Source: Caulobacteraceae bacterium (lineage in GTDB: Bacteria > Pseudomonadota > Alphaproteobacteria > Caulobacterales > Caulobacteraceae). From it: a stretch of 64,000 bases of DNA. This document shows positions 3,845 to 18,247 of this stretch, piece by piece (positions within the stretch are counted from its first letter, which is position 1; every line of letters begins with the position of its first letter). The notes below the pieces were generated by a model. That model made no database searches. It saw only the letters and a list, made by a program, of their open reading frames with translations, and was not told the DNA's origin. A program made the position numbers and the translations under genes. The stretch is taken from NCBI GenBank assembly GCA_019695035.1, contig JAIBAU010000003.1, positions 124,001-188,000 on the forward strand, written 5' to 3'.

Positions 3845-5659
3845 TCAGATTGGCTTGCAGACCTCTTCGAGCCAGGCCCGGGTCGGGCCGTCGACCTGCG
3901 GGCCGACCACCGCGACGACCTTCGCATGATAATCGTCGAGCCAGTTCCGCTCGTCGGCGTCCAGCAGGTTGCGGTCGATGAGCTGGCGGTCGATGGGGGC
4001 CAGCGTCAGGCTCTCGAAGCCGAGCATCGGACGCTCGCCGCCGGGAATGTCCTCGGCCGGGGTCACCACCTGCAGGTTCTCGATGCGGATGCCATAGCCG
4101 CCGACCTGATAGTAGCCCGGCTCGTTGGACACGATCATGCCGGGCTGAAGGGCGATCGAATTGGGCGCCTTGGAGATGCGGTGCGGCCCCTCGTGCACGC
4201 CGAGATAACTCCCCACGCCGTGACCGGTGCCGTGGTCGTAGTCGAGGCCGGCCGCCCACATCGGAACCCGCGCCAGGGCGTCGAGGGCATGGCCGGTGGT
4301 GCCGGCCGGGAAGCGCACGCGCGACAGCGCGATGTGGCCCTTCAGCACGAGGGTGAACATGCGGATCATCTCGGCGGAGGGCGCGCCCACCGCCATGGTG
4401 CGTGTCACGTCCGTTGTGCCGTCCAGATACTGGCCGCCGGAGTCGACGAGCAGCAGGTTGCCCTTCTCGATGCGCCGGTTGGTGCGATGCGTCGGGTGAT
4501 AGTGCGGATAGGCCCCGTTCGGACCGGCCGCGGCGATGGAGTCGAAGGACAGGTCCTTCAGTGCGCCCGTCTGTTCACGCAGGCCCTCAAGCTTGGCGGC
4601 GATTTCGATCTCGTCTGGCAGGGTCTCCTGCGCTTCGGTGGCGACCCAGTGCAGGAAGCGAGTCAGCGCCGCCCCGTCGCGAGCGTGCGCGTTACGCGCG
4701 CCCTGCACCTCGATCGTGTTCTTGGTCGCGCGCGGCAGGGTGCAGGGATCCATGCCCCGGATCACCTCGGCGCCGGCGCCCTGCAGGCGATCGAAATACC
4801 AGGCCGAAGACTGGGCAGGATCGACCAGCACCTTCCGCCCCTTCATGGCGTCCAGCGCGTTCGGCAGATTTTCGGTCGGCTCGAGCGAGACGCTGTTTCC
4901 GAGCCATTGCGCCAGTTCCGGGGTCCACTTGGCCTCGTCCAGGAAGAGGCGCGCCGAGCCGTCCTTGTTCAGGATGGCCTGACCGATCGGAAGCGGCGTG
5001 CGGATGACGTCGCCGCCGCGCACATTGAACAGCCAGGCGATGGACGCCGGCGCCGTCAGCACGGTTGCGTCGGCCCCCAGTTCAGCGATGGCCTCGCCGA
5101 GGCGATGGCGCTTCGAGGCGGACTCCTCGCCGGTGTATTCGGTCGGATGCGGCACGACCTTGGCCGCCGGCTGCGCCGGTCGCTCGGACGCCCAGGCCTC
5201 GTCGAGCGGATTGCTCGTCACCGCCTTCAATCTGGCGCCGCGCCGCTCGGCCGCCTCGCGCAGCCAGTGGAGCGCGTCCGGAGAGTGCAGCCGCGGGTCG
5301 TAGCCGATCACCGCGCCGGGCTGAGGCGCGCTTTCGAGGTAGGCCGGCACGCCGCCTTCGACCAGATCACGAATCTCGAACAGCGACTTGTCGACCTGCA
5401 CCTGAACCTGGGCGGTGTATCGCCCGTCCACGAAGACGGCGGCCTTGTCCTTGAGCACCACCGCGGCGCCGGCTGAACCGGTGAAGCCGGTGAGCCAGGC
5501 CAACCGGTCATTGGCGGCAGGCAGGTATTCGTTCTGGTGCTCGTCCTCGTGCGGCACGAGGAATCCGTCGAGCCCCTGGGCGGCCATCGCCTGTCGCATG
5601 CGGGGCAGGTGTTTGGAGCCGAAGGAAGGATCGGTATGTTCGTCGAAGGTCTGGCGCAT
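3845..5659 (-). CDS. aminopeptidase P family protein (Xaa-Pro aminopeptidase, M24)
   Basis: Cytosolic metallopeptidase predicted to remove an N-terminal residue preceding proline, 604 residues, the long three-domain form. Two creatinase-type N-terminal domains (roughly 1-300) precede the pita-bread catalytic domain. The metal ligands of the M24 fold are all present: Asp in [19 protein letters not shown] (two Asp), His in HGTGHGVG, Glu in SNEPGYY and Glu in GIRIENL. The ATG giving MRQTFDEH was chosen; a TTG two codons upstream is possible. It is 23 bases upstream of the DUF457-like gene on the same strand. Confidence 0.95.
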
Positions 5660-12923: not shown

Positions 12924-13145
12924 TCAGGTCGCGGCGTGTCGGGCGGTTCGCTCGAGCGCCGCGACCCGGCAGGCCGACGCCAGCGGACGGCGGCCGCGCC
13001 CGGCGTCCAGCTTCTGCATCAAACCCGCGAGACTGAGGCCCTCCGTCTTCGCCCAGCTGTCGAGCACCGCCCAGAACTCGGGTTCAAGCGCCACGGACGT
13101 GGCGTGTCCTGCGAGCAGGATGGATCGCTTGCGGAGGGTAGACAC
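12924..13145 (-). CDS. ribbon-helix-helix domain protein (RHH_4 type)
   Basis: A 73-residue protein. KRSILLAGHATSVALEPEFWAVLDSWA ... GLSLAGLMQKLD ... RPLASACRVAALE (given here in pieces) follows the RHH_4 family (PF13467), whose 'SVxLEPEFW' and 'LSxALRVFVLE' blocks are characteristic in alphaproteobacteria; DNA binding is presumed. Its GTG start shares one base with the TAG stop of the upstream gene, so it is translationally coupled to it. Confidence 0.85.
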   Translation of the reverse strand: MSTLRKRSILLAGHATSVALEPEFWAVLDSWAKTEGLSLAGLMQKLDAGRGRRPLASACRVAALERTARHAAT

Positions 13146-13453
13146 TAGCGCGGCCTCGGAGGTGGAACGTCGATCGATCCCGCCCGCCCGGGGTCGAAAG
13201 GGTCATGCAGGAAAGGCGGCCGGCGCAATCCGGGGCGGGCCCGGGCGGGCGTCCTGACGGGCTCGGCGCCCAGGAGCGGCTCGGGCGTGTCCCGACTGTC
13301 CGCGTCCTCGGGGAGGGCCGCCTCGGCGGCTGCAGCCTGCAGGTCCATCGTCAGGCGCGGTTCACCCGCACGGATGTCCGCGTCGGACGGGCCGGCCTGA
13401 ACCGGCCCGCCGAGCCCGAACAGAAGCAGAATGACGAAGAACAGCTGACGCAT
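13145..13453 (-). CDS. small secreted protein of unknown function
   Basis: A 102-residue protein with a signal peptide (MRQLFFVILLLFGLGGPVQA) followed by a mostly disordered, Pro/Arg/Asp-rich mature part ending PPRPR. No domain recognised. Directly followed by, and overlapping, the ribbon-helix-helix gene. Confidence 0.7.
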   Translation of the reverse strand: MRQLFFVILLLFGLGGPVQAGPSDADIRAGEPRLTMDLQAAAAEAALPEDADSRDTPEPLLGAEPVRTPARARPGLRRPPFLHDPFDPGRAGSIDVPPPRPR

Positions 13454-13464
13454 TGGCCGCCAGA

Positions 13465-13983
13465 CTAGGGCGCTCCCCGACGCTCCGCCAGCACCTGTTG
13501 TTCGATACGGATGCGGTGGCGCAGCATGAACAGGTTCAGGACGGTGAAGACGGCGGCGACCCAGAAGTTGCCGAACGCCAGGGGCAATACCGCGATCTCG
13601 GCGGTGACCACGAGGTAGTTGGGGTGACGCACGAAGCGGAACGGGCCGCTGCTGACGAGGGGGGCGTCGTCCACCGTGATCACGCGGGTGGTCCAGTAGG
13701 GTCCCAGTGTCGCGATCACCCAGATTCTGAGGAACTGCAGGACCAGATAGATTCCCAGCAGCACCCCGTTGGGTTGGCTCTCAACCGGTGTCGTGAAGAC
13801 GATGGCCGCCAGCCAGGCGGCGTGCAGCGCCACCATCACCGGGTAGTGGCCCGCCCCGACCTCGCGGCCGCCCTGGGCCAGCAGCCGCCGCGTATTGTGT
13901 TGCGCCAGCGCCAGCTCGGCCAGTCGCTGCAACACCACCAGGCTCATGACCCAGACGAGGGGCGGCGGCGGCCAGAGGCTCAT
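13465..13983 (-). CDS. isoprenylcysteine carboxyl methyltransferase-like membrane protein
   Basis: A 172-residue protein with four to five membrane spans. The C-terminal block GPFRFVRHPNYLVVTAEI is the SAM-binding signature of the ICMT/phosphatidylethanolamine N-methyltransferase superfamily (RHPNY). Its start overlaps the stop of the type III polyketide synthase (ATGA). The same pairing exists in Bacillus (bpsA-bpsB) and Streptomyces (srsA-srsB), where the methyltransferase acts on the alkylpyrone or resorcinol product. A role in O-methylating the polyketide is inferred from that precedent. Confidence 0.88.
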   Translation of the reverse strand: MSLWPPPPLVWVMSLVVLQRLAELALAQHNTRRLLAQGGREVGAGHYPVMVALHAAWLAAIVFTTPVESQPNGVLLGIYLVLQFLRIWVIATLGPYWTTRVITVDDAPLVSSGPFRFVRHPNYLVVTAEIAVLPLAFGNFWVAAVFTVLNLFMLRHRIRIEQQVLAERRGAP

Positions 13984-15050
13984 GGCGTGACAACGCCGAG
14001 GGCGGCGGTGAAGCCGGGTCCCAGGGTGGTCATGAGATGTGGGCCCCGGACGCCGCGCTGAAGCATCCGCCGCAGGATGAACAGGACCGTGACCGAGCTC
14101 ATGTTGCCATGCTCCCGCAGCACGGCGCGCGCGTCTTCGAGACTGCGTGGCGCAAGGCCGAACACCTCCTCGAGCGCGTCCAGGACCTTGGCGCCGCCCG
14201 GGTGGTTCACGTAGCCCGCGAGATCGTCCTGGCTCAGTCCTTCCCGCTCGAGGAAGGCGTCGACGACGGCCGGAAAGTCATTGCGCACCAGGGCGGGGAT
14301 GTCGCGGGAGAACAGCACCTTCAAGCCGTCTTCGGCCACGTCCCAACCCATGACGTCGAGGCTGTCCGACCAGGTGTGTTCGCCGAAGGGACCGAGCGCC
14401 GGTTCGCCGGCGTATTCATCCCGGCAGCTGATCACCGCCGCCGCTGCTCCGTCGCCGAAGAGCGCGGTGGCGATCAGGTTCGACTTGGTGCGGTCGGCAT
14501 GGCGGAAGGTGAGGGCGCAGAGCTCGACCACCAACAACAGGATACGCGCCCGCGGTTCAGCTTTGGCCATGGCGGCGGCGCGCGCCAGACCGAGCACGCC
14601 GCCGGCGCAGCCGAGTCCGAAGATTGGCAGGCGCTGGACCGTCCGGCGGAAAGGCATCACCTCCATCAGCCGGGCGTCGAGCGCCGGGGTCGCGACACCG
14701 GTGGAGCAGACCGTGACCAGGCAGTCGATATCCTGCGCCTCCAGCCCGGCGCTCTCCAGCGCAGCAGCGACGGCCTCCGCCAGCAGCCGGGTGGCGTTCT
14801 CCAGGAACAGGTCGTTGCGTTCGGGGAAGCTGTGGGCCTGCTCGTACCAGTCGATCGGAACGCAGGACTGGCGGGTCTCGATCTCGGCGTTCCGGTAGAT
14901 GGGAGACAGCCGGTCGTAGCCGCTGGGGCCCGGTGCAAACATGGCGATGGCGCGCCGGGCCACATCGTCCTGTTCGAGGATGTGCGGCGGAGAAGCCACC
15001 TCCAGGGCGACCAGACGCGGTACCGGACCGTCGATGTGGGCAGTGGACAT
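13980..15050 (-). CDS. type III polyketide synthase (chalcone/stilbene synthase family)
   Basis: A 356-residue cytosolic homodimeric-type ketosynthase that would extend an acyl-CoA with malonyl-CoA to an alkylpyrone or alkylresorcinol. The Cys-His-Asn triad is intact: Cys148 (FGLGCAGG), His283 (YVNHPGGAK) and Asn316 (EHGNMSS), with the family's GFGPG-like end (LGPGFTAA). The ATG giving MSTAHIDGPVP was chosen; the open frame upstream is high-GC read-through. It is translationally coupled to the ICMT-like gene, and a DMT exporter is divergent across 233 bases. Confidence 0.95.
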   Translation of the reverse strand: MSTAHIDGPVPRLVALEVASPPHILEQDDVARRAIAMFAPGPSGYDRLSPIYRNAEIETRQSCVPIDWYEQAHSFPERNDLFLENATRLLAEAVAAALESAGLEAQDIDCLVTVCSTGVATPALDARLMEVMPFRRTVQRLPIFGLGCAGGVLGLARAAAMAKAEPRARILLLVVELCALTFRHADRTKSNLIATALFGDGAAAAVISCRDEYAGEPALGPFGEHTWSDSLDVMGWDVAEDGLKVLFSRDIPALVRNDFPAVVDAFLEREGLSQDDLAGYVNHPGGAKVLDALEEVFGLAPRSLEDARAVLREHGNMSSVTVLFILRRMLQRGVRGPHLMTTLGPGFTAALGVVTP

Positions 15051-15283
15051 TGGCTCTCTGGGGCTCGTTCGCCGGCGCGGCACGATGGCCCCTTGAACGC
15101 CGGCGGGCAATCGCCGTTTCTCGGGACGCCTGACCAACCCGCGGTCAGGGGAAACGCTCCGCGCGGACGCGGCATATCCGCAGCAAGTTTGCGGACGAAG
15201 TGAGGGGACAGACCTGCTAGAGGCAATTTGAAGGCGCGTTCCGGCGTCGCCCGGACCTGTTCCTCCCGCCTGCGAGCCGCGCC

Positions 15284-16225
15284 GTGTCGATTGCCGAAGA
15301 CGAGACAAACATCGCCGCCGCCGCAGCGCCGCCCCGACAAGGGTTCGCAGGCGCGGATCTGTTCGCCCTGGCGTCCTGCAGCCTGATCTGGTCGACTACT
15401 TGGTACGCCATCAAGCACCAGTTGGGCGTGGTCCCGCCGCTGATTTCGGTGATCTACCGGTTCGGCCTAGCGGCGGCGGTGCTGTTCGCCTGGTGTCTCG
15501 TCACGCGAAAGTCGCTGCGCCTGACGCCGCGCCAGCACCTCATCGTCGCCGCTCAGGGGGTGTTCGTCTTCTCGCTGGACTACAGCTTCGTCTACCTCGC
15601 GGAGGTCCACGTGGTGTCGGCGGTGGTGGCGGTGATCTTCGCCTCCCTGTCCTTCGTGAACCTGATCCTGTTCCGACTTGTGCTCAAGCTGAAGGCGGCC
15701 CCGCTAGCCTGGGCCGGCTCGGCGGTGGGGATCGTAGGCGTGGCCGTGCTGTCCTGGGGGGAAGCGGCCCGGGCCCACATGGATCCGGAGACCCTGCTCG
15801 GTATCGGGTTCGGTCTGGCCGGGGTCTTGACCGCCGCCATCGGCAACCTGTTCGCAGCGAAGACCCAGGCGGAGGAAATTCCGATCGCCCCCGCCACCGC
15901 CTGGGCGATGTTCTACGGGACCGCGGGACTGGCTCTCTATGCGATCGCGACCGGCGAACCGTTCCTGTTCACCCCGACGGTCGAGTATGTGGGCTCGCTG
16001 ATCTATCTGGCCGTTTTCGGCTCCGTCGCCGCTTTCCTGCTCTACTATGCGCTGGCGCGCCGAACGGGTTACAGCTTCGCTTCCTATATCTCGGCCCTTA
16101 CGCCGCCCCTCGCGATGGGCATCTCGGCGATGTTCGAAGGCGCGCGATGGGGTTGGGAGGCGCTTGCGGGACTGGTGCTGGTGGTCATCGGCCAGTACCT
16201 GCTCATCCGGGCGCCCAAGGTCTGA
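15284..16225 (+). CDS. DMT superfamily (EamA) transporter
   Basis: A 313-residue inner-membrane transporter with ten predicted spans in two EamA repeats. LASCSLIWSTTWYAIK opens repeat 1 and ISALTPPLAMGISAMFEGARWGWEALAG (in pieces) is the usual end of repeat 2. The start is the GTG giving MSIAEDETN. It is divergent from the polyketide synthase gene, so export of that product is conceivable but not shown. Confidence 0.9.
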   Translation: MSIAEDETNIAAAAAPPRQGFAGADLFALASCSLIWSTTWYAIKHQLGVVPPLISVIYRFGLAAAVLFAWCLVTRKSLRLTPRQHLIVAAQGVFVFSLDYSFVYLAEVHVVSAVVAVIFASLSFVNLILFRLVLKLKAAPLAWAGSAVGIVGVAVLSWGEAARAHMDPETLLGIGFGLAGVLTAAIGNLFAAKTQAEEIPIAPATAWAMFYGTAGLALYAIATGEPFLFTPTVEYVGSLIYLAVFGSVAAFLLYYALARRTGYSFASYISALTPPLAMGISAMFEGARWGWEALAGLVLVVIGQYLLIRAPKV

Positions 16226-17221: not shown

Positions 17222-18247
17222 CTAGATCTGAAGCTGGGGCTTGCTTCGAATCCACTGGGACAGCAGCCACTTTGCGCCAGCGGTCGGCGGCAGGCCTGCA
17301 TGCCAGGTCCGCGGGTCGGGCCTGCCGGCGGCGTCCACATTGCGGAAATAGAGGGCGTCGCCCTTGGAGCCCTTGAAGGTCCGCTTGAGCACCGGGAAAT
17401 CGGTGTCTCCGCCCTCGTAGCCGTCGTTCAGATAGATCAGGAACGTGCCGACGCGCTGGCCGCGCTGGGCGACGTCGGCGGCAAGGCCGGGCGTGGCGGG
17501 GTCGATGAAATCGAAATGCGGACTGAACTTCTGACCGACTGCGTAATGCAGGACGTTGATGGTCTCGAATGCGTCCAGCGGGTGGCCGATGGCCGCTCCG
17601 ATGCGGGCCCGCACCAGGGCGAAGACCACATCCAGATCTAGCAGGGAGTAGCCGGTGCCCGAATTGGTCCGCGCCTCGTTGGCCTCGCTGGTCCCGCCGG
17701 GATTGTAGACCTGCGCCGGCCGCAGGAAATCGCGGGACTGGCCGATGACCCAGTCGCAGACCCGGGAGGGAATGAAGCCCTTGAACCCGAGCAGAAGCGG
17801 CTCGGCAGAGATTTGCTCTGGTTCGGGCGGCGTCAGCCATTCGGCGAGGCTCAGCAGCCGGGCGACCGGCAGCGCCTGCTGGGAGCGGACGTGTCCCCTG
17901 GCCGCGGCCATGGCGAGGCCCGCCATCGCATCGTCCCAGTCCTGCGGCCGTCCGATGCCCATGGCCGCGAGCACTGAGGCGTAGGCCGCGGCGTCCGCCT
18001 GGCCCTTGCTCGCTGCGCGATGGATGAACTCGGCGCCTCGAGCCGGATCGTGCGGCGCCCCCCGGGCGCCCACCAGCCTCGCGCCCAGCACGGTGCAGGC
18101 CAGCAGGTGGCCGCTGTTGGCGGCCTTTGCGAGCCACTGCACGGCTTCGTCATATTTTCCCTCGCGGTCGAGCAGGCGCGACAGCATGACGGCGGCGTCG
18201 CCGTCGCCGCCCTGGGCGCGCTGCAGGAGGTCCGCGGTCGTGGTCAT
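17222..18247 (-). CDS. Sel1-repeat / 2-oxoglutarate Fe(II) oxygenase fusion (prolyl 4-hydroxylase type)
   Basis: A 341-residue two-part protein. Residues 1-135 are Sel1-like alpha-helical repeats (YDEAVQWLAKAANSGHLLA; GAEFIHRAASKGQADA). Residues 150-341 form a P4Hc-type dioxygenase domain with the iron triad His244/Asp246 (HFDFIDP) and His316 (TWHAGLPP), and Lys326 for 2-oxoglutarate. It probably hydroxylates a protein side chain; the Sel1 part may recognise the target. Its ATG shares one base with the fumC stop (TGATG), giving translational coupling. Confidence 0.9.
   Translation of the reverse strand: MTTTADLLQRAQGGDGDAAVMLSRLLDREGKYDEAVQWLAKAANSGHLLACTVLGARLVGARGAPHDPARGAEFIHRAASKGQADAAAYASVLAAMGIGRPQDWDDAMAGLAMAAARGHVRSQQALPVARLLSLAEWLTPPEPEQISAEPLLLGFKGFIPSRVCDWVIGQSRDFLRPAQVYNPGGTSEANEARTNSGTGYSLLDLDVVFALVRARIGAAIGHPLDAFETINVLHYAVGQKFSPHFDFIDPATPGLAADVAQRGQRVGTFLIYLNDGYEGGDTDFPVLKRTFKGSKGDALYFRNVDAAGRPDPRTWHAGLPPTAGAKWLLSQWIRSKPQLQI

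Follow-up and report, generated by a model that had tools for sequence, protein, structure and literature searches.

Two-gene loci that pair a type III polyketide synthase (PKS) with a methyltransferase have been published for Bacillus. The bpsA-bpsB operon of B. subtilis has been tied to alkylpyrones with a C15 chain in the wild type, and biofilm and sporulation effects have been connected with it as well (PMC5686519). In the Acetobacteraceae, clusters of a type III PKS, a methyltransferase and an FAD monooxygenase have been published, with a product that was then unknown (PMC8776678). The SrsA-SrsB-SrsC and PkqA-C systems likewise join a type III PKS, with a tryptophan at the cyclisation site, to a methyltransferase (PMC5916927, PMC9927152), and so do HidABC and the planctomycetal clusters, systems for hierridin and alkylresorcinols that have alkylresorcinol synthase activity (PMC10896814). 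Among single enzymes, PKS11 of Mycobacterium tuberculosis is a long-chain alkylpyrone synthase (PMC6274091). We describe here a PKS-methyltransferase pair of the Caulobacteraceae and compare it with these systems.

The pair lies in a 64,000-nucleotide stretch of a Caulobacteraceae genome (hereafter the window). A 356-aa PKS of the BpsA type is encoded on the minus strand at 13980..15050, with an ATG start at 15050; an alternative version of this open reading frame (ORF) extends to 15308 from an upstream TTG. It is followed on the same strand by a 172-aa integral-membrane methyltransferase (MT) of the ICMT family, BpsB-type, at 13465..13983. Upstream and on the plus strand, a 313-aa EamA/DMT transporter with a GTG start, probably a bystander, occupies 15284..16225, and the two divergent starts are separated by 233 bp (15051..15283, a region defined by its coordinates only). 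All three ORFs are where the sequence-only reading had placed them, and all score above the curated Pfam cut-offs: the PKS with PF00195 (82.8 bits) and PF02797 (63.8 bits), the MT with PF04140 (ICMT, 95.7 bits), and the DMT protein with PF00892 (EamA, 92.1 bits). The PKS stop and the MT start share the four bases ATGA. The two genes had been called translationally coupled, and while the overlap itself is in the sequence, the coupling is something that we only infer from it. The promoter of the pair is presumed to lie within 15051..15283. The genome holds one match to Chal_sti_synt_C, and another of its regions resembles the synthase weakly (27% identity, E 2e-5). Around the locus we also observed a 102-aa ORF on the minus strand (13145-13453), 11 bp 3' of the MT gene, with a start that looks like a signal peptide by eye; it gave no Pfam match and no tblastn match across 40 related regions. 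Close to the locus, a 2OG-Fe(II) oxygenase (PF13640) is encoded on the minus strand at 17222-18157, and homologues of it (30-45% identity) occur several kb from the pair, in a different setting, in L123, L124, L127 and L129.

The catalytic residues of the synthase are in place. Alignment to PKS18 confirmed the intact Cys-His-Asn triad claimed from the sequence, with Cys148, His283 and Asn316 matching Cys175, His313 and Asn346, and the triad is intact in all 97 aligned loci (see below). Mtb PKS11 was the best PDB sequence match among those listed (E 9.2e-61, 35.4% identity), and also the best fold match of the AlphaFold2 model (pLDDT 95.4; TMq 0.90-0.91); ArsC was absent among the 60 PDB matches listed for each of three queries. 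At the tunnel positions of PKS18, the window synthase carries the PKS11 residue rather than that of PKS18 at Thr181, Thr195, Trp236 and Ser318, and at Cys178 it has the residue that both enzymes share. Since PKS11-type residues stand at several of these positions, a long acyl starter is likely; our view of the tunnel comes from setting its residues against those of these two enzymes. Identity to PKS11 is low, and it is 35-40% to five Bacillota BpsA-type proteins (a set that does not include B. subtilis BpsA itself), so substrate and product could differ.

Trp236 aligns to the site of PKS11 Trp230 and ArsB Trp281. The PKS11 position has been equated with that of the tryptophan on which resorcinol formation by ArsB depends, and this ArsB-type residue is conserved in FtpA, SrsA, PKS10 and PKS11 (PMC5916927). 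We considered it as a discriminator between pyrone and resorcinol producers and rejected it: the equivalent tryptophan is common in loci with an MT partner (64 of 66) and in those that have none (27 of 31), so that Trp236 does not settle the ring type.

The MT model is also of high confidence (pLDDT 95.8). In a Foldseek search the eukaryotic ICMT 5v7p ranked second, with probability 1.00, a weak E value (0.069) and a TMq of 0.55; it was outranked by one chain from a chloroplast motor complex. A profile built from 63 MT partners matched ICMT 4a2n (E 1.2e-8), which we take to be the prokaryotic ICMT, across the conserved RHPxY and R...EE stretches. H120, P121, Y123, E129, R157 and E161 are among the residues invariant in the 63 partners. 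The window thus has an ICMT-family membrane protein directly 3' of the synthase and on its strand, as expected of a BpsB-type gene.

We then assessed how constant this arrangement is. The scan used patterns taken from the query and retained the 80 best of 137 loci, a procedure that favours the query's own kind. The final set of 98 synthase loci comprises the window, 77 of these best 80 and 20 fetched from family genomes; L002, L003 and L007 were left out because their contigs are those of L113, L114 and L118. Selection by hand, rather than random sampling, gave the 17 loci from L113 to L129 and the regions at class level, and neighbouring gene families were accepted if tblastn, Pfam or a profile confirmed them. 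An MT gene was found in 67 of the 98 loci, always on the same strand and in the same order (67/67), and within 100 bp in 66 of them. In 17 further, hand-chosen PKS loci at class level the MT is directly next in 16, and about 0.6 kb off in the remaining one (L173).

A phylogeny of the synthase had been proposed as a check on the sequence-only reading. Our tree, made by a quick method, holds 97 of the 98 PKS rows (L065 was dropped) and PKS11, PKS18 and THNS as PDB references. In this quick-method tree the window falls in a clade of 67 rows (SH-aLRT 99), 65 of which have an MT partner. The clade spans Alphaproteobacteria, Bacillota, Dadabacteria, Bacteroidota, Ignavibacteriota, Rubrobacter and others, and in its alphaproteobacterial part every synthase has the partner (39/39). 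PKS11, PKS18, THNS, L060, L033 and L047 sit on long branches of unsure placement. Within this set of locus synthases and three references, the window synthase groups with Bacillota BpsA-type synthases.

Distances within the two protein families also run in parallel. For 63 of the 67 paired loci (L125, L130, L013 and L065 were dropped as truncated or broken), PKS and MT distance matrices correlated with r 0.86, a value reached in none of 2000 permutations, although part of this correlation reflects shared descent. Four Brevundimonas-group genomes (L163-L166, that is G287, G170, G233 and G263) carry an identical joint relic, consisting of synthase residues 11-102 followed by MT residues 114-166, which indicates that both genes were decaying together. 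PKS and MT genes tend to be passed on, and to disappear, as a unit. The genome collection that we used holds no other genome of the window's genus. As side observations, the L163 relic adjoins a PepSY-type gene, the synthase part of the relic is listed twice in G263, and the G673 synthase has a single in-frame stop within an otherwise long match, either a sequencing error or decay.

These data argue for a BpsA-BpsB-type operon. The likeness to the B. subtilis pair lies in order, strand and membership of one supported clade with Bacillota BpsA-type synthases, and the MT of one Bacillota locus (L028, Bacillus mediterraneensis) belongs to PF04140 like that of the window. The order in L028 is phosphoribosyltransferase, xanthine/uracil-type permease, SDR gene, PKS, MT and dynamin, a setting that, the SDR gene apart, we take to be the xpt-pbuX-bpsAB-dynA setting of B. 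subtilis. The window pair differs from the Bacillota loci in its chromosomal setting, beside uvrD, and in the modest identity of the synthase given above. PKS11 shares Trp, Thr181, Cys178 and Ser318 at the cavity positions, yet it is only 35.4% identical and lies outside the MT-paired clade, on a long branch. Compared with SrsABC and PkqABC, a linked flavoprotein hydroxylase gene was not found: the family searched was FAD_binding_3, and none lies on the window's contig (C52). HidABC and the planctomycetal clusters differ in their reverse gene order and in having an oxidoreductase (PMC10896814), and in our 28-row planctomycetal and cyanobacterial clade the ICMT profile found a partner in none of 27 locus rows, some of them on short contigs. 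A linked type I fatty acid synthase, as in ArsABCD-type systems, was not found either: with the size of such a synthase as the yardstick, the longest ORF touching 9-21 kb of the window is a UvrD helicase of 771 aa. The bpsA-bpsB half of the earlier reading is thus backed by family models, phylogeny, gene order and fold, while its srsA-srsB half is weaker, with no flavoprotein hydroxylase gene found near the pair.

Our preferred reading, which we regard as probable from the sequence data, is that the two genes form a BpsA-BpsB-type operon of a methylated alkylpyrone or alkylresorcinol pathway. In such a pathway the synthase would load a medium or long fatty acyl-CoA onto Cys148 and extend it two or three times with malonyl (or methylmalonyl) units; the chain would be released as an alkyl-alpha-pyrone by lactonisation, as an alkylresorcinol by an aldol closure that Trp236 would favour, or as both. 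The ICMT-family enzyme, in the membrane, would use SAM to O-methylate the head group and give a methyl-ether lipid, which may stay in the membrane or exit by an unlinked route. Starter, ring type, methylation site and biological role are all inferred in this scheme; as to the role, one would first think of a lipid of the membrane or one used in signalling.

Other products have to be weighed against this one. The pair could feed a polyketide-quinone pathway like those of SrsABC and PkqABC, in which a resorcinol would be methylated and then hydroxylated by an unlinked flavoprotein to give a respiratory quinone. Trp236 is of the resorcinol type, a PKS does occur together with a methyltransferase and an FAD monooxygenase in alphaproteobacterial clusters of the Acetobacteraceae (PMC8776678), and FAD_binding_3 proteins are encoded elsewhere in the genome, making an unlinked hydroxylase possible. 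However, the genome's six FAD_binding_3 matches all fall outside the contig of the window, and no such hydroxylase was noted near some 20 related loci read by eye; we consider this route unlikely. A non-lipid product built by a DpgA- or THNS-like synthase from a short or aromatic starter seems more doubtful still. Its best argument is that DpgA gives the best NCBIfam match, but the score of 162 bits is far below the cut-off of 425, and we rejected the assignment. The nearest solved structure is PKS11, THNS is only 29.5% identical and has a Tyr at the Trp236 site, and a membrane methyltransferase is a partner that suits a lipid. Two related loci (L167 and L168) point the same way, adding a membrane gene of the fatty-acid-desaturase type (PF00487) between the MT gene and an MFS transporter gene.

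From the divergent layout of the window, one can easily suspect that the DMT transporter exports the product, and this had indeed been proposed. PKS and DMT genes are divergent neighbours 233 bp apart. Of 17 other family loci (with 62-68% synthase identity), five likewise have a DMT homologue that diverges from the PKS, the ORFs being 532-915 bp apart in four of the five. The distribution of the transporter, nonetheless, speaks against a joint biosynthesis-and-export locus. Of 19 hand-chosen DMT regions (20 pieces, one of them an extra flank), 15 have the DMT gene flanked by fumC and uvrD (identified by Pfam) and no synthase at that site; of the others, L145 has uvrD but not fumC within reach, and in L144, L146 and L149 neither was found. 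Of 299 family genomes, 80 have a DMT homologue (46-59% identity outside the window) and 18 a synthase match that is full-length and at least 62% identical (relic fragments left out). In G221 and G086 the transporter stays at its usual site and the synthase is elsewhere, while five loci (L113, L116, L118, L122 and L126) have the PKS-MT pair beside uvrD and no DMT gene. Synteny and distribution hence led us to reject the DMT protein as pathway exporter, and an integrated locus with DMT export appears very improbable, if anything the least credible of the alternatives. In relatives that lack the synthase at that site the transporter counts as a core gene of fixed position, another transporter family is linked to the pair in some relatives, and the exporter claim therefore falls. 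Because the occurrence and place of the DMT gene are independent of PKS-MT, its divergence from the PKS in the window is best explained by chance placement. The DMT protein is probably a core neighbour, an unrelated housekeeping gene, though the pathway may have co-opted it.

The other transporter family is an MFS pump of the DHA2/EmrB type (TIGR00711, 358.7 bits against a cut-off of 230.2). It occurs in 15 of the 299 family genomes (E <= 1e-150), and in 13 of these it lies beside the PKS-MT pair, divergent in 11 and directly after the MT gene on the same strand in two (G153 and G274). The exceptions are G060, in which the 10 kb fetched around the MFS gene hold no synthase (that of this genome lies on a different contig), and G043, in which the contig starts 1.1 kb away. 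A further copy, cut by the contig end and below the threshold, has the same divergent place in G069 (L127), and outside the family the pump is also linked in L006, L009 and L017. In a sample of 385 genomes from the class it was found in 10 (E <= 1e-130), all of which have the synthase too, against 72 synthase carriers overall. Pump and pair share a neighbourhood in seven of these ten: the order is PKS-MT-MFS in L169, L170, L171 and L172, a PF00487 protein gene lies between MT and MFS in L167 and L168, and in L173 a divergent MFS gene lies about 2 kb from the pair. In G354, G358 and G647 the two are on different contigs. The genomes that carry the pump are related, so these cases cannot be counted as independent. 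The pump is absent from most synthase carriers, and the window's genome gave no match to it at E 1e-150 or 1e-130. Single in-frame stops, from sequencing error or decay, were seen within otherwise long MFS matches in G358 and G536.

The longest gene row is that of L167 (2938-8715, all on one strand): LuxR-type (PF03472 and PF00196), LuxI-type (PF00765), PKS, MT, the PF00487 membrane protein and MFS. This membrane protein, presumably AlkB-like, and its counterparts in L168 and L154 show PF00487 as their only Pfam family, and no NCBIfam model matched it. The L154 homologue (4006-5007, 44% identity) was seen about 1.4 kb from an MFS gene, on a contig piece that has no synthase. With PKS, MT, PF00487 and MFS genes standing directly after LuxI- and LuxR-type genes, the L167 row suggests a density-controlled, chain-modified, secreted lipid, and judged by gene order it is possibly a quorum-controlled operon for one. 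More broadly, we put forward, as a tentative idea that we would not favour at present, that some Alphaproteobacteria share an unstudied PKS-ICMT lipid exported by a dedicated DHA2/EmrB-type MFS pump, the window's species having a reduced form of the system in which the pump was lost or replaced.

The locus had also been called probably uncharacterised. This holds for its clade in the literature that we searched, while the kind of locus is known; among the matches listed in that search, for which subscription papers were mostly outside the scope, neither the Caulobacteraceae pair nor its link to an MFS pump was described. Our analysis assigns a recurrent Caulobacteraceae locus to what is probably a known two-gene lipid pathway of wide distribution, and clears its neighbour of a misleading label as exporter. 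The MFS pump linked to the pair in some relatives offers a handle on whether the lipids of PKS-MT loci are secreted.
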